DNA of 20,189 bases, from the NCBI GenBank assembly GCA_026770595.1, contig MU633897.1:1-20189 (forward strand), written 5' to 3'. This DNA is from Ochromonadaceae sp. CCMP2298. Its lineage: Eukaryota > Sar > Synurophyceae > Ochromonadales > Ochromonadaceae. A program made the translations under genes and the position numbers. The notes beneath the pieces were generated by a model, which saw only the letters and a list, made by a program, of their open reading frames with translations, was not told the DNA's origin and made no database searches. Below, piece by piece: positions 1,592-19,959 of the stretch (positions within the stretch are counted from its first letter, which is position 1; the number at the start of each line of letters is the position of its first letter).

Positions 1592-3152
1592 CTATATGCG
1601 CTGCATCAGCGCGTCCTCGATCTCCCTCACGTGCGCGCCGCTCTCGTCTCTGGATCGGTGGATGGCGATGGCGCGGCGGTAGTGCACGTTTCGCAATCTG
1701 GCGGTCGCCGCCTCCCAGCTCCAGCCCTGCGCCCACTCCCACCCCTGCTGGCCCATCTGCTTGCGCAGCGGCTCGTCAGCGATGAGGTCCTTTACGTGCC
1801 TTGAGAACTGCACCATGTCGTCCTTGTTGACAGCTAGCAGCCCGGTCTTCATGGGCTGGATCAGATCCACCACGCCGCCCGCACCCACGCCCACCACTGG
1901 CACTCCTGATGCCATGGACTCCATCACCACGAAGCCTAGTGTCTCTGAGTCCGAGGGCATGGTGAAGATGTCCACTGAGGCGTAGGCTTGGCTCAGCTCC
2001 TCGCCTGGGGGTGGTGGAATGATGTGGGGGGGCGGGGGCTATTAATGCAAGAGTTCGGGCAGAGGGCAGGGAAGAGGGCAGAGGGCATCCCGTTGCACGT
2101 AACATATCTGATATTCCACAGTACACAAAATCCATAGTTTCCCCATGCACACAGGCATACGGTCTAAACAGTCAACACAGTCCATAGAATACACTGTACA
2201 CACTATATGTACTGTACGTACCGACGACCTGTCCCGCGAAGTGCACCGGGTAGTCCCGGAAGAGCTCTCGCAGATCCGCCTCTGCTGGGCCCTTGCCCAC
2301 CAACGCCAAGCGGGCACCCGGGTTAGCGTCCAGCACCGCCTTTAGGCGATCCAGCTTCTTCTCGTACCCCAGCCGCCCCACGTAGAGCAGCAGCGGGGCC
2401 TCGGGGTGACCGTCGCTGAGCCGGGCGCGCATCTTGGCGTCTCTGAAGGTGGGAGAGAAGACCTCCGTGTTGATGCCCTTCTGCCACACATCCACGCGCC
2501 GCACGCCCGCCTGCGTTAGCGTCTCCTGCAGCTGCGGAGAGGTGCAGAGCACCAGATCTGCGAACTGGTGGTAGTAGCCGATGCAGAACTTGGCCAGTTC
2601 GATGCTGCCCGGGACGTTCGCGTAGGCGCGTGCGTAGCTGACGAGGTCAGTGTGGTAGCTCATGAGTAACGGTACGTCCAGCAGACGCGCCCACAGGATG
2701 GCCGGGTTCAGGATGGCCGAGGGCGAGCTGACGTGGATGATGTCTGGCTTGAACTCCTTGATGAGCTTGAGCACGTTGCCCTTGAGGTCGAAGGTGACAG
2801 TGACGAACTTGTAGAGGGGGAACTCGAACCCGCGCGCTGAGGTGATCGGGTACCCCAGGAAGTCCGTGGGCCTGTTGGGGTCCGCGTCAGGCGTTATGAT
2901 GGACACTTCGTCGCCGGCGTTTTTGAGATATTTGAGCATCTCTTTGAACCTGTTTGCATAGCCGCTCACGTAGTTGAAGGGCGTGGGCTCCACCAGGAGC
3001 AGCACCTTCATGGGTTTCTCCACGTGGGGTGGGATCTCGGAGACGGTGGCAGCAGTCCTCTGGCGAGTGATTGTTTTCGCAAGCGGCACGAAAGCCTGGT
3101 GCGGCAGCAGCAATGAGAGCCATAGGAGCTGCACGAAGATGGTTGCAAGCAT
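1592..3152 (-). CDS. SQD2: Sulfoquinovosyltransferase SQD2-like (sulfolipid synthase), plastid targeted
   Basis: The expected reaction is transfer of sulfoquinovose from UDP-sulfoquinovose to diacylglycerol, making the thylakoid lipid SQDG. Exon 1 is 3152-2222 and exon 2 is 2004-1592. The intron (2221-2005, 217 bp) starts GTACGTAC and ends CCCCCAG, and splicing joins VVG to EELSQAYASVDIF in frame. The product is 447 aa. Residues 1-20 form a signal peptide, and HQAFVPLA follows with a Phe near the predicted cleavage site, then a basic, Ser/Thr-containing region, typical of plastid import through secondary membranes. The GT-B fold of family GT4 follows: KVLLLVEPTPFNYVSGYANR (about 49-68), DIIHVSSPS, the YVGRLGYEKKLDRL donor-side motif, and E331-x7-E339 within PSDSETLGFVVMESMASG. 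Length and order fit SQD2. Other GT4 enzymes are possible but less likely. Confidence 0.88.
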
Positions 3153-3271
3153 CGTTAAGCGCGCTGTGTGTGAGAGATCGAGGAGACGCGCCGGAACAGG
3201 TCAGCCGGCTCTGGAACGCGTGCGGGAATGCCGGCGCAGGGTTCACCTACCCTAACAGCAGGTCTGGGCCC

Positions 3272-4080: not shown

Positions 4081-5189
4081 CTATGTACACCTCCACCTGT
4101 TCCCGCACCCGAGGCACTCCACGAAGACCGTCATGGGCTCGTCCGAACTGCGCGTCTGCAGCGAGTAGTGAGACGTCTTGGTGCCCTTGCACTTGCGGCA
4201 CGTGAACTCGCCCCCCTTGTCAGGGTCGATGCCGTTGGCCTGCAGCATGGCGTTGCGGGTGATCTCGTACAGATCCGACCGCCGCGCGAGCATGGCTTGC
4301 TTGGCTACCACCTCCCTAGCCCCACGCACATCGTCAGCAGCGAGATCGTTGGTGCTCAGGAACGCAAGGTCTCCAGGGTCGATAATGCCGCCAATAAGAT
4401 CTTGCCGCAGACGCTGAGGTATTTCGGAGGTTAGGGGAGGCTAGGGGGGCGCGAGGAGGCAGTAGAGAGTCAGGCGTGCTTACCTCATTCTTCTTCAAGT
4501 TGAAGTTAAGCGACTTGGCTTTGTTGAGATACGCCTTCATGTCGGTGTCCATGTTGAAGAGCTTGTTCACGGACGCCTCGACGTTGAAGCCGATAAAGTT
4601 CGAGAAGCTAGCGCTCACCTGCCCGTGGAAACGCTGCGCAAACATATCCATAATCTGTAGACGAGGAAAGGGCAGAGGGAATCAGCAACCATCACAGCGC
4701 AGTATGCTGACTAAGGCTTACGTTTCGCCGACCGAGGGAGAGCAGTGCAAACCTGCTATCCTGGAAGTGGCTGTCGTCGTTATCGTCGATCTCCTCGCTC
4801 TTCGACGCCTGCGCATTCTCCGGCTTCTCCAGCTTCTCCTCAACCTTCTGTGCCGCCTCTCCCTTCACCTCAACCTTTAATTCTCCCTTCACCAACTTTA
4901 CGGACGGCGCTGGCTCGCCCTTTGGCTTCTCTTGCTCTCCAGAGCAATCTTTCTTCCACTTCGAGAGCAGCACTTTCGACTCCGCGCCGATGTTGTCCCC
5001 GGCGTGCTTCTTCTTCAGTTCCTGTATCGTCAGGCCTATCTTCGTCCTCCGCAAGATGTCTATCGTAATCGGGACAGCAGTGAGTGCCTTCAGGACGTCT
5101 TTGATTTCCTCCTGCGCATCATCGGACTCGAGAGCTTTCTCCAGCGCGGTGCGGTAGCCCACGACCTCGTTCTCCGCCCGAGAACTCAT
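4081..5189 (-). CDS. TFIIS: Transcription elongation factor S-II (TFIIS)
   Basis: TFIIS rescues backtracked RNA polymerase II by inserting an acidic hairpin into the active site to stimulate transcript cleavage. The exons are 5189-4722, 4654-4484 and 4413-4081. The introns are 67 and 70 bp, both GTAAG...AG and both phase 0. The product is 323 aa, close to the 300-310 of yeast and human TFIIS. Residues 1-80 match the N-terminal LW domain (ITIDILRRTKIGLTIQELKK, then LLSKWKK). A Lys/Glu-rich linker follows. The central polymerase-binding domain spans about 155-265 (AYLNKAKSLNFNLKKNE, then LRQDLIGGIIDPGDLAFLST). The C-terminal zinc ribbon has CxxC...CxxC (CRKCKG, CLGCGNRW) and the catalytic hairpin QTRSSDEPMT, with the invariant Asp-Glu pair. 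The upstream TTG extension of the frame is rejected in favour of ATG at 5189. Confidence 0.95.
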
Positions 5190-5355
5190 GGCGCCAGTCA
5201 ATTAACTATGCAGAACCGAAGCCACGTGAAGGTGGTCGATCGACGGGGACTCGTCCAATCACTCTTGCAGCAAGTGAGCTGTTACTCGTATCAGTCCTTC
5301 ACAAGTGCAGGCATCACGACATTGACCTCTCGAGCTCCCTCGGGCCCTCACACGG

Positions 5356-5771: not shown

Positions 5772-5951
5772 GAACGGGAATTGGATGCGAGCCTCCGCGG
5801 TGGAGTTGGATTTCCAAGTATCCAAGGATATTCATTATAATCCCTTGAGCAGCACCTGGAGGAGCAGCAGCACCTGGAGCAGCAGCAGCAGCAGGCCCCT
5901 CTCTCTGCGGCCTTGCGAAGCTCCCCCTTGGAACACGACACAGCAGCGACA

Positions 5952-7027
5952 ATGATTCATCAACATATTCGAGAGCCTTTAGAGCGGTGGTTCTGCCCCT
6001 GCGTCCAGGCGAGCTCGGATCTCTCAGATGATGGCCAGTGGGTGAGCTCACCCGTGAAGATAGGCAGCTCCATCCTCCTGTACGGCAGGCGGAAGTCGGC
6101 CTTCCCCGCTCACTGCCTGGTGGGACCGGACTGGCCCTTCGTCTGCTTAGTGTTGTTCTTGATAGTGGCCGTCAACGCCGTCGTTCTCGGAGTCATCTCC
6201 CCCATCGGATGGCCGCCGGTGCTTATCGGGCTGGTCGGGACGTTGGTGCTGATGGTGACCTACTGCCGCACTGCTTTCTCCGACCCTGGCATCGTCTACA
6301 GGAACGACTGCGATGCCCCGCTCAGACCCAGTCGAGACATAGAGAGCATAGAGAGCATAGAGAGCATTGACGACAAGCCCACCCTGCAGACGCCCATAAT
6401 GCAGGGTGAGGGTGGGCCCTCTCTGCACCTCCCGCACAGTATGGACTGCGGCCAGTGCGATTTCAAGCGCCCCTACTCAGCGAGGCACTGCGATTACTGT
6501 GGGACCTGCGTAGATCAGCTCGACCACCACTGCCCCTGGTAAGCACACGCCCTAAACACCGCCGCTACTCTCTCCCATCCCTCCCTTGCTTTGCTTTTGC
6601 ATTCTCCACGCGCCTCGTTCCATGTCCCATGTCCCCTGCTTTCTGTCCCCTATTCCCTATTCCCTGTAACCCTGTAACCCTGTAATTCTGTCCTCTGTAA
6701 CCCTGTAACCCTGTAACCCTGTCCTCTGTACCCTGTAAATCTGTCCTCTGTCCTCTACCACATGGGTCCCATATCCCTGCCCCATGTCACCTATTCCATG
6801 TCCCCTATTCCCTATTCTCTATCCTCTGTTCCCTGTACCTTGTCCTCTATCCTCTATCCTCTGTCCCCTGTTGCAGGTCTGGCAAGTGCATCGGCGCGAA
6901 GAACCTGAAAGCCTTCTACCTGTTCACCGGCATGCTGTGTCTGCAGATCTACTACCTTATGGGCTGCTTCCTCTACTACATCATCTACTTAGCTGACGTG
7001 GGGGCGCCTACGGGGCCTCACTTCTAA
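5952..7027 (+). CDS. DHHC-type protein S-palmitoyltransferase
   Basis: DHHC enzymes attach palmitate to cysteines of membrane-associated proteins from the cytosolic face of the secretory membranes. Exon 1 is 5952-6538 and exon 2 is 6877-7027. The 338-bp intron (6539-6876) interrupts the Trp codon right after DHHCP. The product is 245 aa. Two membrane helices (about 60-82 and 87-104) precede the DPG motif (FSDPGIVY, 109-116). The cysteine-rich domain follows (CGQCDFKRPYSARHCDYCG, 166-184) with the catalytic DHHC at 191-194. A third helix spans about 208-235. The usual fourth helix and TTxE motif are absent: the frame stops 10 residues after helix 3. Either this is a shortened form or a further exon has been missed. 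Residues 130-139 carry a small IES tandem. The ATG at 5952 is chosen over an upstream TTG. Confidence 0.88.
6545..6870 (+). repeat. Pyrimidine-rich microsatellite intron of the DHHC gene
   Basis: The intron is almost entirely low complexity. CTGTAACC-type units run at about 6663-6760, followed by CCCTATTC and CCTCTAT variants to about 6865, ending TTGCAG. It is read as simple-sequence expansion inside an intron and nothing in it looks coding. Confidence 0.7.
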
Positions 7028-7968: not shown

Positions 7969-10900
7969 ATGTCCAAGCTCGGCAACTATATAGACGGAAA
8001 ATTTGTGGCGCCAGAGTCCGAAAATCTTCGGGACGTTCTGAGCCCCCACGACGGCAAAGTAGTAAGGTGTGTTGTGGAGTCAACTGCGGAGGATGTGAAA
8101 GCCGCGGTTAAGTGTGGCGCTGATGCGTTCGAGAAGTGGAGCCTGCTGTCCAGCAAGGAAAGAGCCGCCAAGCTGCTCTTGATGTACCACGCCATCGAGC
8201 AGCACCTAGACGAGCTGGCGGGGATAATTAGCCTCGAGAGCGGGAAGAGCCGCGTGGAGGCGGTGGCGGAGCTGCGCGAGGGAATGGAGGTGCTGCGCTG
8301 GGCGGCGGCATTACCCTACCAGAGCCGGGCCAGGCAGCAGCAGCTGAGCGACGGGCTTGTGTGCCAGGAGTCGCGCAGGGCGGTGGGAGTGGTAGTCGCC
8401 ATTACCCCCTTCTGCTCGCCAGGTAAGCTTCCGCTTTCTCTTGCTGTTGCCCACCCTCGGTCAGCCACTCACCTCTCCCTTTCTTTCCCCTCTTCCCTCT
8501 CCTCCACGCACTTCTTGTTTCTTCTTCCGACATAAATTCTCTCATACATCAACCTACCGACCCCAGTGCTGGCGCCCCTGTGGACCATCCCCTTAGCACT
8601 GGTGCTGGGCAACTGCGTCATACTCAAGCCCTCTTCGCGCGCGCCCTCCGCGATGGTGCGCGTCTTGGAATTGATGGACAAAAGCTGGCTGAGTGCGGCT
8701 GGTGCGGGGTCGGATCCCTGCCTGCCCCCGGGAGTGCTGCAGATCATACACGGGAACTGTGACATCGCGCTGGATCTGTGCAAGCAGCCGGACGTGCGCG
8801 CTGTGACATTCGTAGGCGGCACGCAGGGAGCCCAGGGTGTGTACCATTACGGTAGTGGGATGTCCAGGCGCGTGATGGCGCTGGGCACGCTGCGCAACAT
8901 CGTGCTGGCGCTGCCCGACTGTGACACAGACAGGGCGGCCGCACAGGTGGTGGGCAGTTTCACGCACTGCGCGGGGCAGAGCGCCATGGCTGCGCGGCTG
9001 CTGCTGCTCGTGGGCGGATCCCGGGACAGCCCCCTGCTGCAGAAGATCCTAGAGGGGGTTGGCGCGCTGGGGGGGAAGGGAGGGCAGGTGGGACCTATGA
9101 TAGACAAGGCTTCCTACGGGAGGGCGGTGACTACGGTAAGGCAGGCAGCAGCCCGCGGTGGAGAGTTGCTTGTGGATGGGACGGACCCGAACACAGGCTG
9201 GGGCACAGGGACAGCTCCGTCGGCTCCTTTCTTCCTCGGGCCTACGGTAGTGCTGCTCTCCGAGTGGACGGAGGAGCAGGTGGTCTGCGCGGGGCCCGTG
9301 CTGCTGGTCTACTGCCCCGCCACACGCGAGGAGGCCGTGGCTATAGAGAGAGCCAACCCGCACGGCAACGCGGCCTGCGTGTTCACCGAGAGCGGCACTG
9401 CAGCTGACTGGTTCCTCCGACGCCTCAATGCCTCTCTAGTGGGGGTCAACAGCACCCACCCCCGCACCGCCGGGCCCTTCTGCTATGGGGGGCAGCTTGG
9501 CCTCAGCCAGTTCGGCTATCCAGGCGGGGGAGAGGCAGCCGAGGACTTCTTCTCAGACCGAGTGCTGACCGCGTCGGCATGGACTGGCTACAGCGTGGGC
9601 GAGCGCGCAGAGCCCACAAACCCCAACCCCAACGCGGAGCCCTTGCCTGCGCGCGCGACCGTTAGCGTCACGGTCAGCCTCCCCAGCCTCCCCTGCCCCA
9701 CCATCAACACCGCTCGCGCCGCTCCAGAGGCAGCGAAGGAGGCTGACCGCGCAAGCCAGGCGGCGCAGGCGCAGGTGCAGGGTATAACACTGGCGCAGGG
9801 TATGGGTATGGGACAGGCGAACTGGAAGCCCAACCCCAACAGGGCAGAGTTCGTGCCAGGCGCGCAGAGGGCCCCTACCCCTACCCCTACCCCTACCCCT
9901 ACCCCTACCCCAGCTGCGGTATCAGCCCCCGCCCCCTTCAGCTCCGCTGCTGCCGCCGCTGCTGCACAGTCCGCCGCCATCATAGCAGCCGCCGCCGCGG
10001 AAGCTGGCTCTGGCGCCCTGATAAACGGGGCGGGCTCGGTCGCCGCGGTCGCTGCGGTGGCCGCCATCGCTGCCGTCGCTGCGGCCGCAGATGTGAAGGA
10101 CGGTCCGAGGGATGTGCTTTTTGTTCCCAGTTTCCCCCTGGACGCGGCGTCCGCGAGTGCCGTGGGCAGCGGGCTGGCCTGGGTGCCCGAGGAGATCGCT
10201 GCGGACCCCCGGGAGGAGACCCCACCCTTGAACGAGGGATCCCTGGCGGAGGCGGGGGCTGTGGCTGTGGAGGCGGGTCCGCCGCTACCCCCGACCACGC
10301 GCTACCACGACATCGACCTGCTGCTGCCCCCCGATGATGGCTTGGTATCTGCAGTGGACGACTTCGTGGGGCGCCTGTCCCCGCACGAGACGCAGATCGC
10401 CTACCGCGCCTCGGCAGTGCGCTACATGAAGAAGCACATACGCAAGGCCCTGCAGTGCAGCGTGTTCGAGTGCGGGCTGCACGCACTGCGTACCTTCCTG
10501 CCTTCTGACGAGATCCTGCTGACGGTGGTGCTCTCGGGGCGCCTGGAGAGCTGCTGGAGCAGGCAGCTGTACGAGTCGCTCATCAAGGCGCAGAGCCAGG
10601 CCACCGACGTGCCTGACGGACAGGTGGTGAACGGCAAGCACCGCATCCGCCACGTGCGCTCTCTGCAGGGCGACGCGACGCACAAACTGCTGTGCCTGTG
10701 CGACGGAACGGAGGTGAGGGTTTCTTTGAACGCGCGTCCGGACATCTGTCTGCTGGCTTTCTTCGAGGAGGTGGCGCTGCTAGTGGGGAGGGACAATCTA
10801 CTCAAGCGCAGTCTGCTGCTAATTCGCGCCTGGTGGCTGGAGCAGGGCTCTGGGGGGGCGGGGGGGCAGCTGGGGGACTTCACTGTGTGCGTGATGGTGT

Positions 10901-13900
10901 GCGCGGTGTTCAACACCCACCCCGAGATCTGCTCGCCCCTGCACGCCCTCTGCGTGTTCCTGCACATGTACGCGGGGTACGTGGGGGGCACGCACGTGAT
11001 CACACTGCAGGGGGTGGTTCCCTTCGCGGCCCCCAACAGCAGCCAGTTCACCCCCCTGGCCCCGCAGCCGCACCACCTGATCAGTCGCGATGCCCTGGAC
11101 CGCTACTGGCAGCTGTTCAATCTCGACGAGGTCTTCAAGGGCCGGGGCACGCGCCCGCCCTCCACGCCCGCGCAGACGCGCACGCCCTTCCAGCGCGCAG
11201 GCTTCAACGTGCAGCATCCCTTCATGCTGAAGAACATGCTGGGGGGTCTGCAGGAGCACGCGGCTGCCCTGCTGAGTGTCGCCTTCGCAGATGGGGCCAG
11301 AAAGGTGTCCCTGGCGATGTCCCAGAATTGGGATGGGAATCCCCGCCAGCTTGTGGACTCTCTGTTCCTCACAGTGGCGCCTAGGTACCGCATCGATGCT
11401 CGCCCTGATGCCCTGGGCAACTCAGTGCTCACGCAGGGGGAGAGCCCCACAGAGTAAGTAGGAGTGTGTGAGTGCGGTGCATGAGTGCCTGAACCCTTCT
11501 CGCCTGATTTCATACAGCTAGTCTTTATTATTGTCAGCTTTACCTGTCCGTAGTTCGTTAGTCCGCATTGCGCAGTCCACAGTCACAGTGTCAAGAGTGT
11601 TTTTTAACCCCCCCTCCTCCCTCCCCACCCCCCGCAGGAGCAAGTACGGCGGCGACCTGATGTCCGTCTCGATGGACAAAAACTGGCAAAACATATTGTT
11701 CTGCAACTTCATCGTGGAGAGCATCGTCTCCGAGTCCGCTATCCTCACCTTCTGCATAGGTACGTACTATACATGTGTTTATTGAACCCTATATTTTATA
11801 CCTATATGTGTGTATGTGTTTATGTGTGTATTAAACCCTATATATGTATTAAACCCTACATTACCCACCTTATAGACGCGCTCTCCATGGCCGGCCTCAT
11901 GACCACGGACGACCTCTCCAAGCGACTCAACGAGGCCTCCAAAATACCCCAGCTGATGGTGGAATTGAAAGAGCAGGTGGGGGGGCTGAAGAAATTCCTG
12001 ACGAGGTTTCCGGATGTGTTCGTGTTCTCGTACGAGCACCCGTACAACCCGCACATCATCCTGCGCATCGCGCTCTCCGCAGAGCTTCAGGGACAGGTAC
12101 GTACTACCTATATTGCATTAAACCCTATACTATATACCTATATGTGTGTACTAAACCCTGTATATGTATTAAACCCTATAGGTGGTCAAGGGCGAACTGC
12201 CTGTGCGGCTGCTCTCCAACCTCATCGCCAAATTCGGACGATACAAGGCCCCCCCCACCGTGCTCAAAACAGAAGCCTACCGGGCAAAGCACCCAGGGGC
12301 GCCGGCGGCAGTGCCGGGGGCGGGGATTGCGGCGCCGAAGCAGGAGGTGGGGGGCTCTTACCCCGGCTACGCACTGCCGGTCTATGAGTACGAGGGGGCG
12401 CGCACTGGTTCCGGCTCCTACCCCTTGCTGCCTGCTGGGGCGGGGGAAAGTCCCATGGAGAGATCGCAGAGCTTCTCTGTGGGGCAGGAACAGCAGGGAC
12501 AGGGACCGGAGCAGGGACAGATGCAGGGACAGGGGCAGATGCAGGAACAGATGCAGAAACAGATGCAGAGACAGATGCAGGGGCAGGGGCAGAAGCAGGG
12601 GCAGGGGCAGATGCATGGGCAAGGGCAGGGACAGATGCAGAGGCAGCAGGGACAGGGACAGATGCAGGGGCAGCAGGGGCAGATGCAAGGGCAGATGCAG
12701 GGGCAGATGCAAGGGCAGCAAGGACAGGGGCAAATGCATGGGCAGGGGCAGCAGGGGCAGGCACAAGGACAGCATATGCAAGGACAGGGGCAAGGACAGG
12801 GGCAGGGACAGGGGCAGAGCGGCTCGCACTACTACTCAGGGGGCATTTCCGCCAGCCCCCCAGCCCCGGGCTTGAGCCAGGGGAGGAGCCAGACACAGTC
12901 CCAGCAGAATATGCGCGGCCCCGGCCCCGACTCGTCCCCAATGTCCTTCCAAGATCTTGATTTCTCCAGCCTGGGACAGGGGCAGGGACAGAGGCATGGG
13001 GAGTACCGGGGCAGGGACGATGAATACCGAGGCATGGACGAGATGCAGGGGCAGATGCAAGGACAGGGGCAGATGCAGGGACAGATGCAGGGGCAGGGGA
13101 ATGGGGAGTACCGCGGTAGGGACGATGAGTACCGGGGTAGGGACGATGAATACCGAGGCAGGGACGAGATGCAGGGGCAGATGCAAGGACAGGGGCAGAT
13201 GCAGGGGCAGATGCAGGGGCAGATACAGGGACAGATGCAGAGGCAGGGGCAGGGGAATGGGGAGTACCGCGGTAGGGAGGATGAGTACCGGGGCAGGGAC
13301 GATGAGGACCGGGGCAGGGACGAGATGCAGGGACAGATGCAGGGACAGGGGCAGATGCAGGGGCAGATGCAGGGACAGGGGCAGATGCAGGGGCAGGGAC
13401 AGGGGCATGGAGAGTACCGCGGCAGGGACGATGAGTACCGGGGCAGGGACGATGAGGAGTGGGTGGAGCCGGGTTATGGGGACAGGGGCCTCGGCGCCTC
13501 CACGCACAGGGATGACGACATGCACAGCGGGCTGCTCTCCAGCCTGAGAGAAAACTCACTAGAGTTCACGATGCCCCGGTTCACGGGGCAGGAGGGCAGC
13601 CTGGACCTATACCTGGGCGGCCAGGCGGGCGTGGGCGCCCTGGGGGCCCTGGGGGGGGCTCGTTCCACAGGGTCCCACAGCCTTTCCTCGCCCATGACTA
13701 GCGTGAATGGTATGGGCATGGGTGGGGCGGGTATGGGCATTGGGGCATTGGGGGGTGAGGACTTGGCGGCGTCTATGGGGTTCGATTCGTACTTCGGGGC
13801 GCTTCTCCCCGCAGAGCCACTGTCGTTGCCGCCCGCGCAGCTGCCCACGTCTGTGGGAAGCACTCCCGCCGGACGGTCAGTTGCCACCTCTGCCCACGGC

Positions 13901-14008
13901 TCTGTCTCTTCCTCCACCTCTGCCTCCCCCTTAGCCCCGCCCTCTCCCTCTATCGCAGCCTCTCCTGTGCGTCTGGCACTAGACCCGCAGCTGGGGGACC
14001 TGCAGTAG
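7969..14008 (+). CDS. Giant fusion: ALDH-like + nucleotidyltransferase-like + Q/G/M-rich tail, likely double pseudoenzyme
   Basis: The exons are 7969-8422, 8567-11453, 11638-11759, 11876-12096 and 12182-14008, which join in frame to 1836 aa. Residues 1-490 follow the aldehyde dehydrogenase fold, nearest to the methylmalonate-semialdehyde type (PLWTIPLALVLGN, ILKPS, TFVGG, GPVLLVY). The catalytic Cys in GQxC is Ala (A291), the Asn of PFNFP is Cys (C149), and the EIFGP Glu is lost. Residues 491-740 are an Ala/Pro-rich linker with (PT)n. Residues 741-1115 resemble plant PAP/OAS1-like nucleotidyltransferases (LKRSLLLIRAWW, GFNVQHPFMLKN), but the expected DID is EIL and the third Asp is Arg. Residues 1165-1260 (VGGLKKFLTRFPDVFVF, HPYNPHIILR) may be a LOTUS/OST-HTH-like fold. 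Residues 1329-1655 are Gln/Gly/Met repeats, then a low-complexity end. Exon 2 stays open through the ALDH-linker-nucleotidyltransferase join, so the fusion is direct. Function is probably scaffold or RNA-related (inference). Confidence 0.75.
9872..10095 (+). repeat. (CCCCTA)n and Ala-codon low-complexity linker DNA
   Basis: A CCCCTA hexamer repeat at 9872-9911 encodes alternating Pro-Thr. It is followed to about 10095 by GCN-rich DNA encoding long Ala runs. This lies inside the linker between the two enzyme-like domains of the fusion gene and is translated in the open frame. It may also act as a recombination hotspot. Confidence 0.7.
11760..12181 (+). repeat. Two homologous introns flanking exon 4 of the fusion gene
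   Basis: Intron 3 (11760-11875) and intron 4 (12097-12181) both begin GTACGTACTA. They share TATACCTATATGTGTGTA and TATGTATTAAACCCTA in the same order, and both end TATAG. They interrupt the gene in different phases (1 and 0) and the exon between them is unrelated, so the intron sequence itself has been copied. AAACCCT recurs several times within them. Confidence 0.8.
12482..13460 (+). repeat. Coding tandem repeat (GQMQ units and EYRGRDD higher-order units)
   Basis: Two blocks, at about 12482-12822 and 12975-13460, are built of 6- to 12-base units (CAGATGCAGGGA/G types) encoding Gly-Gln-Met-Gln. The second block has a higher-order unit: GEYRGRDDEYRG-type acidic/basic segments alternate with GQMQ runs, four times. 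A non-repeat spacer encoding PMSFQDLDFSSLGQG precedes the second block. The protein is expected to be disordered and prone to self-association. Confidence 0.85.
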
Positions 14009-14550: not shown

Positions 14551-14901
14551 TTAGTAGTCGCCGGTCTTCTCCGAACCGCCGAACATGTCCATGCCGCCCG
14601 CAAGCGCGTCCACCTCCTCCTCCTTGGGCTTCTCGGGCGCGGCCGCTGCCGCAGCAGCAGGGGCACCGCCAGCAGCGGCAGCGGGGGCCGGGCCGCTGGA
14701 CGCGCCAGCAGCCATGAGCTTCAGCTTGCCATCCGCGATGATCTCGCCAATGTCCTTGCCCTCGAGTTCGCCGAGCATCTGGGTCAGACGCTCTGTCTCC
14801 ACCTCAATGCCAGCCTCGCCGAGAAGGGTAGTGACCTGCTCAGCAGTGGGGGCGGCGTTTCCACCCGCGACCAGAAGAAGGTATGCTGCCAAATGCCGCA
14901 T
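14551..14901 (-). CDS. RPP2: 60S acidic ribosomal protein P2 (stalk protein)
   Basis: P2 forms heterodimers with P1 on the P0 base of the large-subunit stalk and recruits translational GTPases. The 116-aa frame has no intron and starts with MRHLAAYLLLVAGGNA, the diagnostic P2 N-terminus. The helical dimerisation domain follows (VTTLLGEAGIEVETERLTQM, IGEIIADGKLKLMAAG), then the Ala/Gly-rich hinge (about 68-88) and an acidic end. The length is normal. The oddity is the C-terminus: animals, fungi and plants end in a DDMGFGLFD-like motif, whereas this protein ends EEEVDALAGGMDMFGG and then SEKTGDY, keeping only the Met-x-Met/Phe part. This may be a lineage feature. It is convergent with the fusion gene. 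Confidence 0.95.
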   Translation of the reverse strand: MRHLAAYLLLVAGGNAAPTAEQVTTLLGEAGIEVETERLTQMLGELEGKDIGEIIADGKLKLMAAGASSGPAPAAAAGGAPAAAAAAAPEKPKEEEVDALAGGMDMFGGSEKTGDY

Positions 14902-15354
14902 CTTGAATCAATTTAAGGATCTAGGGGAGAGGGAAAAGAGGAGGGAGATGCTCGTTTACCAACTGCGCGAGGGGGGAAGAAGAGCATGCACGGGCAGAGC
15001 ACTCACCAAATCCGGACACAAGAAAGACGATATATGATAAGTATATGATTCAAAGCAAGGGGCAGGGAGGAAGATGGAGGACGTGCTGTGGACCTCTCTC
15101 TGCTTTGGGCGCCCCCAAAGCCACACGAATGCCCAAAAAGTAAAACAGCAGGGAATTAGCCCCCCAGCAGGTCCCCTTGCTGCTTCATGGGAATTACGGT
15201 GGCTTGAGGGATTTAACCGGCCCAATAACTTACCCACTAAGACCACTAATAAGACGACTAAGACGACTAAGACGCTTTGACAATTTATTTACAATAGTAC
15301 ATTTTGAAAACTGCCTAATGTAATCGATTCGTAAATGATTCGTTGAAAGTGATG
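14902..15354. other. P2 upstream region with a small tandem repeat
   Basis: This region holds the promoter side of the P2 gene and the 3' flank of the membrane protein gene, both on the minus strand. An (ACTAAGACG)-type tandem lies at about 15235-15275. No other gene or motif could be supported. Confidence 0.45.
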
Positions 15355-16985: not shown

Positions 16986-17190
16986 AGAGGGGGTGAGTAA
17001 ATTGTGCCGTTTTTGCCCCCATCGCCTCGGTTTTAGTGATGGGACAAAAGCTGGCACCCTCCAAAATGAGGAGGGGGGATGACCAAATGCACAGGAATCT
17101 TCAGGAGGCAGAGCTAGGTTGCACTGTTGTTTTGTGGCAACGAGCCCCCGCATTCCTTCGTCCCAGTGCTTCAAGATCCGCTCACCGCAA

Positions 17191-18666
17191 ATGACGACCA
17201 TGCACCAGACGCGGCTGCTGCGCGTCGTGCTAGTGCTTGTGGCGTTGCTGCAGCTGACTCTTGCAGGATCCATGTCCAAACCCCACTCCAACAACGGCAT
17301 CCTGCAGCCCTACGACGGGAAGCACATTTCCTACAACATAACGGTGGAGCAGAACAACCAGCTGAACGCAGGCCAGCCCGTGGCTTACAGTGACAGGTCG
17401 GGCAAGGCTGGTCGCGGCGTGGCTCTGCAAGACATTGCTGCGCCGCCCCACATCTGCATGGACAGAATCAGCGACTTGAAGAACTACCCCAAGATGGTGC
17501 CCAAGGTACGCAAGGTGGAGATCTACCAGGACGAGAAGTTCGAGAATGGGACTTCGAAGGTGGGCGCGAACTTCGAGGTGGGACTGTTCCCGCTCACCTT
17601 CAGCTACTACCTGCTGCTGAAGTATGAGCCCAGATACCACACCTTCACCTGGACGCTGGACTACAGATACAGCAGCGACTTCGGTAAGTTTCGTGAAATC
17701 CTCACTCTCAGCTGCACGACTGACATCACTCTACTCTACCACTCTATCACTCGCATTCCTCCCCTCCGCCGCTGTCCCCCTTGCCCCCCCTGAACCCCAT
17801 TAACCCCCTTAACCCTCTTGCCCCCGCTGTTACTTTACCCCTGCAGAGGACAACACCGGGCACTGGCAGGTGATGCCGCACCCCACCAAGGAGTAAGTCG
17901 AACTTCAGCCCACAACCCTCGCTACCTTTACCACCTTAGTTCTCCACCTCCTTGCCTTCTTACCTTCTCACCTTACATTCTCACCTTACCTTACCTTACC
18001 TTACCTAACCATCTCGCCTTCCTAGGGGCTGGTCGAGAGTGCTCTACTCCACGGAGGTGCAGCTGCTACCCTGGATCCCCGAGTTCGTCATCACCTTCCT
18101 CACCAAGACGGCGCTTGTGGAGGTACACGTGTAGGCAGTAGGCAGTAGGTGGTAGGCAGTAGGTGTTACTAGTTAGCAATAGGGAGTAGGCAGCACAGGA
18201 CAGCCTGAGCAGGTTGCTATTTTCATCTGCACCGCGACTCTGACCTTGCTCTCTCCTCTCTTCCACCCCTCTCCTACCCCTCTCCTACTCCTTTCCTACC
18301 TCTCTCCTACCCCTCTCCTACCCCTCTCCTACCCCTCTCCTACCCCTCTCCTACCCCTCTCCTACCCCTCTCCTACCCCTCTCCTGCCCCTCTCCTACCC
18401 CTCTCCACCCCTCTCCATCCCTCCAGTCCACCACATGGGTGCGTAAGGAGTCGGAGAAGCTGGTGAACTCACCTGCCGTCAAGGACGTGCCCGTAGTGTC
18501 CATGCCCGACCTCAGCGCCTGCTTCCTCGAGGACGAGTTCGGCGCCAGGTACGAGACGCACTGCATTGAGGCCAGTGCAGGGGACAGTGAGGTGGTGACT
18601 GACAGTGAGACCGACAGCGAGGTAGAGGCGGAGGCGGAGGCGGCAGTGGGGACGGAAGAGTTGTAA
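17191..18666 (+). CDS. START/SRPBCC-like protein with signal peptide, copy A (291 aa)
   Basis: The exons are 17191-17683, 17847-17892, 18026-18122 and 18427-18666. Introns are 163, 133 and 304 bp, in phases 1, 2 and 0. The Met at residue 1 (17191) precedes a basic and hydrophobic signal peptide (residues 8-25, RLLRVVLVLVALLQLTLAG). The body resembles the polyketide-cyclase/coenzyme-Q-binding branch of the START fold: HICMDRISDLKNYPKMVPKV (about 88-107), YLLLKYEPRYHTFTWTLDY, GHWQVMPHP and WIPEFVITFLTKTALVE. Proteins of this fold bind lipids or other hydrophobic ligands. The C-terminal 50 residues are acidic (SETDSEVEAEAEAAVGTEEL) and differ from copy B. It should enter the secretory route, or the plastid if a transit signal follows. 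It is convergent with its paralog at 18835-19959. Confidence 0.85.
18255..18420 (+). repeat. 11-bp minisatellite in intron 3 of START-like copy A
   Basis: The unit CTCTCCTACCC is repeated in tandem with few changes, making most of the pyrimidine tract before the CTCCAG acceptor. CTTAC-type units also fill the end of intron 2 (about 17960-18005). These are simple-sequence expansions inside introns. Confidence 0.85.
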
Positions 18667-18834: not shown

Positions 18835-19959
18835 TCACATACGACTGCCGAATTTGGGCATCTTGACGAAGGAGCTGAGCCTATGCCTCTGCGTTCTCAG
18901 ATCGCTCTCTACGCCCGCCAGTCTCGCGTCGAGCTTCTTCCTGATATCGCTCGCCCCGCCCTTGATGTTGAACCACGAAGGCACCTTGGCGATGTCCCCA
19001 TTCTTGCTCTGCTCCAGCTCGGCCTCCCGCTTGACCCAGCCGGTGGACTCCGTCAGCGCCTTGGTGGTGAGGAACTTGATCACGAACTCGGGGATCCACG
19101 GGAAGAGCTTTATCTTGCACGAGTAGAGCACGCGCGTCCAGCCCTTCTTGGAGGGGTGCGGCTGCACTTGCCAGTGCCCCACGTTGTCGTCTAGGGGGTA
19201 AGGAATGGAAGGGATGCGGGGATGGGGATGGGGATGGGGATCAATGTGAGCACAGGTCGAGGACGCAGACACGGCCTCCCGCACAGTGCGAGTGGGCTGT
19301 ACTTACCGAAGTCACTGTTTTTCGTGTAGTCCAGCGTCCACGTGAGTGTGTTGTACCTGGGCTCGTGCGTGAGCAGCAGGAAGTAGCCGAAGCCCATGCC
19401 CAGCAGACCGATGTCCATCTTAGCGCCTGTCTTGGACGTGCCCTGTATTGGGAGGGGAGAGGGGGAAGAGGTGGGGGGCCGAGTACAGTGAGAAGTCTGT
19501 CAGCCACTGTGTGAGCATACGGGTCTACAGCTCTACAGCGGCTCTTACGTTCATGAACTTCTGCGTGTGGTAGATGTTGACCTTCTTGACGTGCGGAACC
19601 ATCTTGTTGTAGTTGCCCAGGTCTCTGATCCTACCCATGCAGATGGGCATTGACGCGTTCACGTCCTGGATAACAACGCCTCTGCCGGACTTCCCGTCGC
19701 GCTCGTTGTAGGTGACCTGCAGAGAGCACAGAGCAAGCAGACGATGGAGTTAGATGATGCATGAAAGACGATCGGCCCTCGTCCGACTTACAGCGTCGCC
19801 TTTGTCTAGCTTCTCCTTCTGCACAGAAGACAGTTTCATGGGAAGGGGTTTTCCGTCATAGGCCCCCAAGATGCCCTGATGGCCGTGCGGCTGTTTGTCC
19901 GACGAGGCAAGAGCCCCCGGTAGGGCGAGGAGCGCAATCAACAGTAGGATTCGCAGCAT
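18835..19959 (-). CDS. START/SRPBCC-like protein with signal peptide, copy B (275 aa)
   Basis: The exons are 19959-19792, 19716-19549, 19442-19307 and 19190-18835. Introns are 75, 106 and 116 bp, in phases 0, 0 and 1. ATG at 19959 gives a clear signal peptide (MLRILLLIALLALPGALAS). The body aligns with copy A along its length: HGHQGILGAYDGKPL against HSNNGILQPYDGKHI, ICMGRIRDLGNYNKMVPHVK, LLTHEPRYNTLTWTLDY, GHWQVQPHPSKKGWTRVLY and WIPEFVIKFLTTKALTESTG. The C-terminal part (KVPSWFNIKGGASDIRKKLD, then basic to the end) differs from copy A's acidic tail. The expected role is binding a hydrophobic ligand in the secretory or plastid route. Only the intron after SDF (phase 1) is shared with copy A. 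Confidence 0.87.
19215..19241. repeat. (GGGGAT)n microsatellite in intron 3 of START-like copy B
   Basis: Four tandem GGGGAT units at about 19217-19241 lie inside the intron between exons 3 and 4. Confidence 0.7.

Follow-up and report, generated by a model that had tools for sequence, protein, structure and literature searches.

Does a single gene join an aldehyde dehydrogenase (ALDH) fold to a nucleotidyltransferase fold after both have lost their catalytic residues and, if so, what could such a protein do? The question is raised by a locus in a 20,189-nucleotide stretch of DNA from Ochromonadaceae sp. CCMP2298 (contig MU633897.1), all of which was analyzed and which we call the window. The original prediction, made from the letters of this DNA alone, described two dead enzyme folds followed by a possible winged helix and a prion-like tail. 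As an observation on the sequence it is confirmed as a whole: within one spliced reading frame, an ALDH-like and a nucleotidyltransferase-like domain are followed by a winged-helix segment and by a tail of repeats rich in Q and G (Table 1).

The single-gene model is also upheld. Spliced translation of the five exons is free of stops over 1836 residues and the introns are of the GT-AG type; reading through introns 1 to 3 brings in-frame stops, and reading through intron 4 shifts the frame. At splice junctions 1, 3 and 4 the joined sequence aligns to relatives without gaps, as judged by eye. Junction 2 sits within a variable stretch, and the tail past residue 1262 has a shared exon as its sole anchor. 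An in-frame stop is located 19 codons 5' of the ATG, so that in the gene model the ALDH domain begins at its first strand, without a presequence. A further 5' exon carrying a presequence may exist.

Table 1. Positions of the fusion gene, its parts and neighboring genes in the window
Feature	Position	Strand	Basis or remark
Glycosyltransferase family 4 gene, in pieces	1592-3200	-	PF13439, PF00534
TFIIS transcription elongation factor, in pieces	4081-5201	-	PF08711 (TFIIS helical-bundle-like), PF01096 (TFIIS zinc ribbon)
Start of DHHC palmitoyltransferase	5841-6542	+	PF01529 at 28.4 bits (cut-off 28.7)
Whole predicted gene	7969..14008	+	5 exons, 1836 residues; stop-free spliced translation, GT-AG introns
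ALDH6-like pseudoenzyme domain, residues 1-490	7969..9582	+	PF00171, TIGR01722, PDB relatives; intron 8423-8566 within
Cys149 replacing active-site Asn (PFNFP in P0001, PFCSP here)	8413..8415	+	Alignment to P0001, position checked
Loss of the catalytic Cys: Ser290-Ala291 replacing Arg-Cys (AGQSAMA here, P0001 has AGQRCMA)	8980..8985	+	Alignment to P0001, position checked
Low-complexity linker, residues 491-729	9583..10299	+	Exon shared with flanking domains; open frame, codon score
Predicted Cid1/GLD-2-type pseudo-nucleotidyltransferase core, residues 730-1110	10300..11442	+	Predicted structure, sequence family
Degenerate catalytic motif CGLHALRTFLPSDEILLTVV, without GS, without D-h-D	10471..10530	+	Family alignment, position checked
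Winged-helix segment, residues ~1140-1225	11714..12087	+	Family alignment, P0002 model, weak Egalitarian matches; intron 11760-11875 within
Low-complexity C-terminal tail, residues 1262-1836, plus stop codon	12281..14008	+	Q/G/M-rich tandem repeats at 12493-13458
60S acidic ribosomal protein gene, convergent with fusion gene	14551-14907	-	PF00428
Frame EPRYHTFTWTLDY, resembling the next	17083-17793	+	Open reading frame
Frame EPRYNTLTWTLDY, resembling the previous	19191-19499	-	Open reading frame

The ALDH superfamily fold is still recognizable, as had been claimed, to judge from a PF00171 match at 4e-76 that covers positions 2-456 of 461. The methylmalonate-semialdehyde dehydrogenase (MMSDH) family TIGR01722 is the top NCBIfam family, about 100 bits ahead of the runner-up (267.3 against 165.6 bits), and every one of the ten best PDB sequence matches of this half is an MMSDH. 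The domain thus shares its full-length fold with ALDH6/MMSDH enzymes (PDB 4zz7, 1t90), but it scores below the TIGR01722 cut-off of 448.5 bits, has lost the Cys, Arg, Asn and cofactor contacts, lacks a presequence in the model and is fused. By comparison with P0001, a protein named MMSDH at its source, the catalytic Cys and Asn are replaced by Ala291 and Cys149, which bears out the claim of a dead ALDH half. LKPSER has become LKPSSR, with the Glu lost and the Lys retained, FVGS has become FVGG, and the Glu and Phe preceding the GPV motif are Val and Ala. We take the replaced Glu of KPSE, Glu and Phe before GPV and Ser of FVGS to be NAD or cofactor contacts. With these residues gone from the sequence, catalysis by this half is very unlikely and NAD binding of the usual kind is doubtful. 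P0001 also starts with a leader some 40 residues long, which has no counterpart in the window gene model.

A canonical MMSDH above the cut-off was not found in the source assembly, which at 11.2 Mb may be incomplete and in which genes match exon by exon. By our reading, other ALDHs of the assembly look betaine-aldehyde-like (C38 and C340) and succinate-semialdehyde-like (C159). An intron that seemed common to C38, C340 and the window ALDH was discarded, as the positions differ by eye.

The second enzyme fold is equally recognizable. Residues 730-1110 are confidently modeled as a Cid1/GLD-2-type nucleotidyltransferase, the structural match spanning the whole core, and the nearest folds to this model are RNA-tailing enzymes; a structure search with the model of a relative, P0002, gave solely RNA-tailing nucleotidyltransferases among the best 50 matches listed. 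Active template-free nucleotidyltransferases (TUTases and PAPs) carry a GS motif and a D-h-D metal-binding Asp. Each is present in 0 of 31 aligned rows, comprising the window and 30 relatives and omitting the family rows P0009, P0011 and P0035, the non-member P0012 and the distant P0036. The predicted loss of catalytic residues is therefore real, but it characterizes the family as aligned and did not happen in the window gene in particular. Compared with Cid1, GLD-2 and URT1, the core shows only about 12-17% identity, besides lacking GS and D-h-D. The distant relative P0036 has GSGSYTSRTYLPTSDIDL at the catalytic motif; this nucleotidyltransferase, with GS and D-I-D motifs, also bears precomputed PF07679, PF13895 and PF13927, presumably immunoglobulin-type domains.

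Ten relatives match the window over the nucleotidyltransferase and winged helix with E-values from 2.4e-96 to 1.4e-39, which places the gene in their family. The family is tagged PF26180 in precomputed annotation; the PF26180 model itself gave no match in the window or the relatives with the Pfam copy used. All three family rows bearing an organism name are stramenopiles: P0014 (labeled Ochromonas), P0027 (Triparma) and P0028 (Scytosiphon). Nucleotidyltransferase residues are kept across deep divergence in the family alignment. The window itself was the sole match when nucleotidyltransferase paralogs were sought in the source assembly (two candidates scored), and among viral contigs 15 stretches fit a pattern, none of which encodes a relative. 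We found no paper on PF26180 or on inactive stramenopile terminal nucleotidyltransferases in open-licence full texts, which is weak evidence of absence; this apparently is an undescribed and uncharacterized pseudo-TUTase family.

Is the fusion seen elsewhere? In P0003, from a 5503-base JGI contig, and in P0017, from a 4768-base ENA contig, the N-terminus matches the end of the ALDH domain, of which no more than the final 29-36 residues are visible; a linker leads from there to the nucleotidyltransferase. These ALDH ends were first spotted by eye, and all 35 rows P0002-P0036 were then tested alike. Against the window ALDH end, P0003 scores 65 and P0017 scores 60 (0/2000 shuffles each), whereas none of the remaining 33 rows exceeds 29 (22/2000). 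Against the canonical ALDH tail, shuffle counts are 3/2000 for P0003, 2/2000 for P0017 and 3/2000 for P0027 (score 36), the last of which is likely a false positive and gauges the false-positive level. A profile built from the window ALDH and P0001 finds P0017 at E 0.0025 (positions 490-525 of 533) and P0003 at E 0.0043 (500-524), the only two of 33 family rows under E 0.1, the next being at 0.14; E-values for this profile and for the PX profile below refer to a set of 34 sequences. NCBIfam detects no ALDH in these two proteins, whole or as their first 45-50 residues, nor does Pfam in the whole proteins, and 40 residues of P0003 gave no match in a PDB search. In a 31-row tree based on nucleotidyltransferase columns alone, the window, P0003 and P0017 form one clade (100/100), and they are about 38-45% identical to each other. 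The ALDH ends and this clade together suggest that the fusion arose once and long ago; a single, old origin is probable, judged from fragments. The ALDH segment present in all three fused lineages is, we assume, the C-terminal oligomerization strand. The original prediction had held that a fusion would be contradicted if relatives always kept the two domains unlinked. Most relatives do, but P0003 and P0017 have them linked as far as the fragments allow. We found no paper on an ALDH-nucleotidyltransferase fusion in open-licence full texts, which is weak evidence of absence and agrees with the remark in the original prediction that no such domain order was known to it.

Could the gene be an illusion or a relic? 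Two neighboring genes, or an artifact of the assembly or the gene model, may give the look of a fusion across a linker that is of low complexity, has about 69% GC and contains long open frames on both strands, all the more so as the gene model was read from genomic DNA alone. Codon score in the linker is best in the gene's frame (-0.009 against -0.062 to -0.571), yet the runner-up, a reverse-strand frame with one stop, nearly equals it. However, the gene's frame is the sole stop-free frame of six over 9568-10299, and both P0003 and P0017, from JGI and ENA, respectively, show the ALDH end in frame before the module, in agreement with the clade. An assembly error or two genes thus appear unlikely, and we grant such an artifact very little weight. 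Less credence still is due to a decaying pseudogene, to which the missing catalytic residues and the repeat-rich tail might point: 1836 codons remain open between GT-AG introns, the ALDH fold is still detected at 4e-76, and the nucleotidyltransferase residues are conserved over deep divergence, their catalytic losses being family-wide rather than recent.

PF26180-marked relatives share the pseudo-nucleotidyltransferase and winged helix with the window gene but have a PX domain, a receiver or no recognized domain at the N-terminus, where the window has ALDH. A PX domain, a phosphoinositide-binding module, is precomputed in 5 of 31 rows retrieved by one family search, and a PX profile built from P0026 and these five rows picks up P0032, P0020 and P0014 as well (E 8.3e-5 to 1.4e-4); the same profile finds no match in the window up to E 1. 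P0016 bears two receiver domains (PF00072, two stretches) between its N-terminus and the pseudo-nucleotidyltransferase. A precomputed ALDH domain is present in none of the retrieved family rows. Since PX, receiver or ALDH can precede the same core, the N-terminus behaves as an exchangeable module and, judging from these searches, ALDH occupies in the fused clade the place of PX in others. No paper joining a PX domain and a nucleotidyltransferase in oomycetes was found in open-licence full texts, again weak evidence of absence.

Downstream of the core, the possible winged-helix segment is supported by the family alignment, where relatives share the signature GGLKKFLERFP...DHPFNPHV, and by the P0002 model, in which the winged helix (~624-730) is of high confidence, with a mean pLDDT of 65.2 for the whole model. 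The window matches WH_Egal (PF23713) at E 0.015 and 16.2 bits, below the cut-off of 27, and Egalitarian tops a PDB search with the family profile at a sub-threshold E of 0.05. From both search directions the winged helix would thus lean, weakly, to this RNA-binding protein. In the tail, which is encoded by tandem repeats, Q makes up 30% and G 24% of residues 1326-1660. This putative prion-like stretch, with its Q/G/M-rich repeats, reaches at most 52% Q+N in 60 residues, and N is nearly absent from it. Tails as rich in Q+N, or richer, also occur outside the fusion: among 12 unfused relatives in which a long tail follows the winged helix, three (P0016, P0020 and P0023) have at least 55% (55-62%) Q+N in 60 residues. 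Net charge is -5 for the ALDH domain, +2 for the nucleotidyltransferase, -3 for the winged helix and -20 for the tail.

We propose, with a probability of about one half, that the product serves as an RNA-binding scaffold of several domains, two of them pseudoenzymes, and that its N-terminal module has been exchanged. The conserved core, a dead terminal nucleotidyltransferase with an Egalitarian/LOTUS-like winged helix, would hold an RNA or RNA-protein partner without extending it. The ALDH6-derived domain would provide a dimer or tetramer platform, or an additional contact to RNA or protein, while the Q/G-rich tail would contribute weak multivalent contacts. The ALDH6-derived domain has lost its catalytic residues and, in the model, leaves no room for a mitochondrial presequence; the protein may reside in the cytosol.

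Several parts of this proposal have a precedent. ALDH16A1 belongs to a different ALDH family and, to our knowledge, carries no nucleotidyltransferase. It is, however, described as an ALDH pseudoenzyme, its fold lacking the catalytic triad as in the window (PMC10650815). Human ALDH6A1 itself is reported as an RNA binder validated by PNK assay (PMC6581911) and is tabulated among RNA-interactome enzymes (PMC4671484). The DZF domains of NF45-NF90 are presented as pseudo-nucleotidyltransferases within RNA-binding complexes (PMC11952958), that is, a dead nucleotidyltransferase fold inside an RNA-binding protein, as the window protein may be; in that description they are carried with dsRBDs and no ALDH, and the likeness is one of description. 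In Egalitarian, winged helices adjoin an enzyme-like domain, as in the window, and the putative catalytic residues of that domain are reported to be dispensable for RNA binding (PMC13186709); yet Egalitarian is exonuclease-like rather than a nucleotidyltransferase, and the winged-helix similarity is weak (E 0.05). The RNA binding of human ALDH6A1 and the pseudoenzyme precedents favor an RNA-binding scaffold in which the ALDH domain oligomerizes and perhaps contacts RNA.

Some observations argue against an RNA scaffold: the net charges computed from the sequence seem atypical for an RNA binder, and the putative Egalitarian link lies below the cut-off. The PX domains of relatives may just as well speak for membrane traffic. 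The protein may then be a traffic or signaling adaptor in which the dead nucleotidyltransferase docks proteins, as MiD51-type dead nucleotidyltransferases act as receptors, and in which ALDH substitutes for PX as oligomerizer, the PX-bearing kin binding phosphoinositides. PX in several relatives, the two receiver domains of P0016 and the acidic winged helix and tail would fit such an adaptor; however, the nearest folds of the core are RNA-tailing enzymes and the winged helix leans toward an RNA-binding family, and we consider this explanation possible but rather unlikely. The original prediction had suggested RNA granules and metabolite sensing as roles; both are somewhat disfavored by the lost NAD contacts and the acidic ALDH domain, winged helix and tail. 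A metabolite sensor, in which the dead ALDH6 domain would switch the RNA-binding half through a retained affinity for NAD(H) or a CoA ester, could build on the retained LKPS Lys and general ALDH fold, but the replacement of the KPSE Glu, the Glu and Phe before GPV and the FVGS Ser leaves it improbable.

A more specific version of the RNA-binding scaffold, which we put forward only as a speculative scenario, would be that of a captured moonlighting enzyme: ALDH6 would have been fused once, at the PX site, to a pseudo-TUTase/winged-helix RNA adaptor, would have lost catalysis and mitochondrial targeting, and would have become a permanent RNA-binding or oligomerizing subunit. If true, the gene would be an evolutionary record of an enzyme-RNA link. 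Whether cells make biological use of the RNA binding of metabolic enzymes has long been asked. With a dead ALDH6 fused to a dead RNA-tailing enzyme, apparently in a single old event, the gene lends itself to a natural test of whether an ALDH domain that has given up chemistry can still bind RNA. More broadly, the locus points to a pseudo-TUTase family with swappable N-terminal modules (PX, receiver, ALDH).

Among the other genes of the window, in which an Rfam search gave no match, the glycosyltransferase presumably resembles the sulfolipid synthase SQD2, which would fit a photosynthetic organism. The two look-alike frames toward the end of the window are possibly a divergent duplicate pair; that on the forward strand has a weak, sub-cut-off Pfam match to Polyketide_cyc2, and that on the reverse strand has no Pfam match. 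Within the fusion gene, the adjacent introns 11760-11875 and 12097-12181 have the unit ATTAAACCCTATA and the donor GTACGTACTA in common, as if one were a copy of the other.
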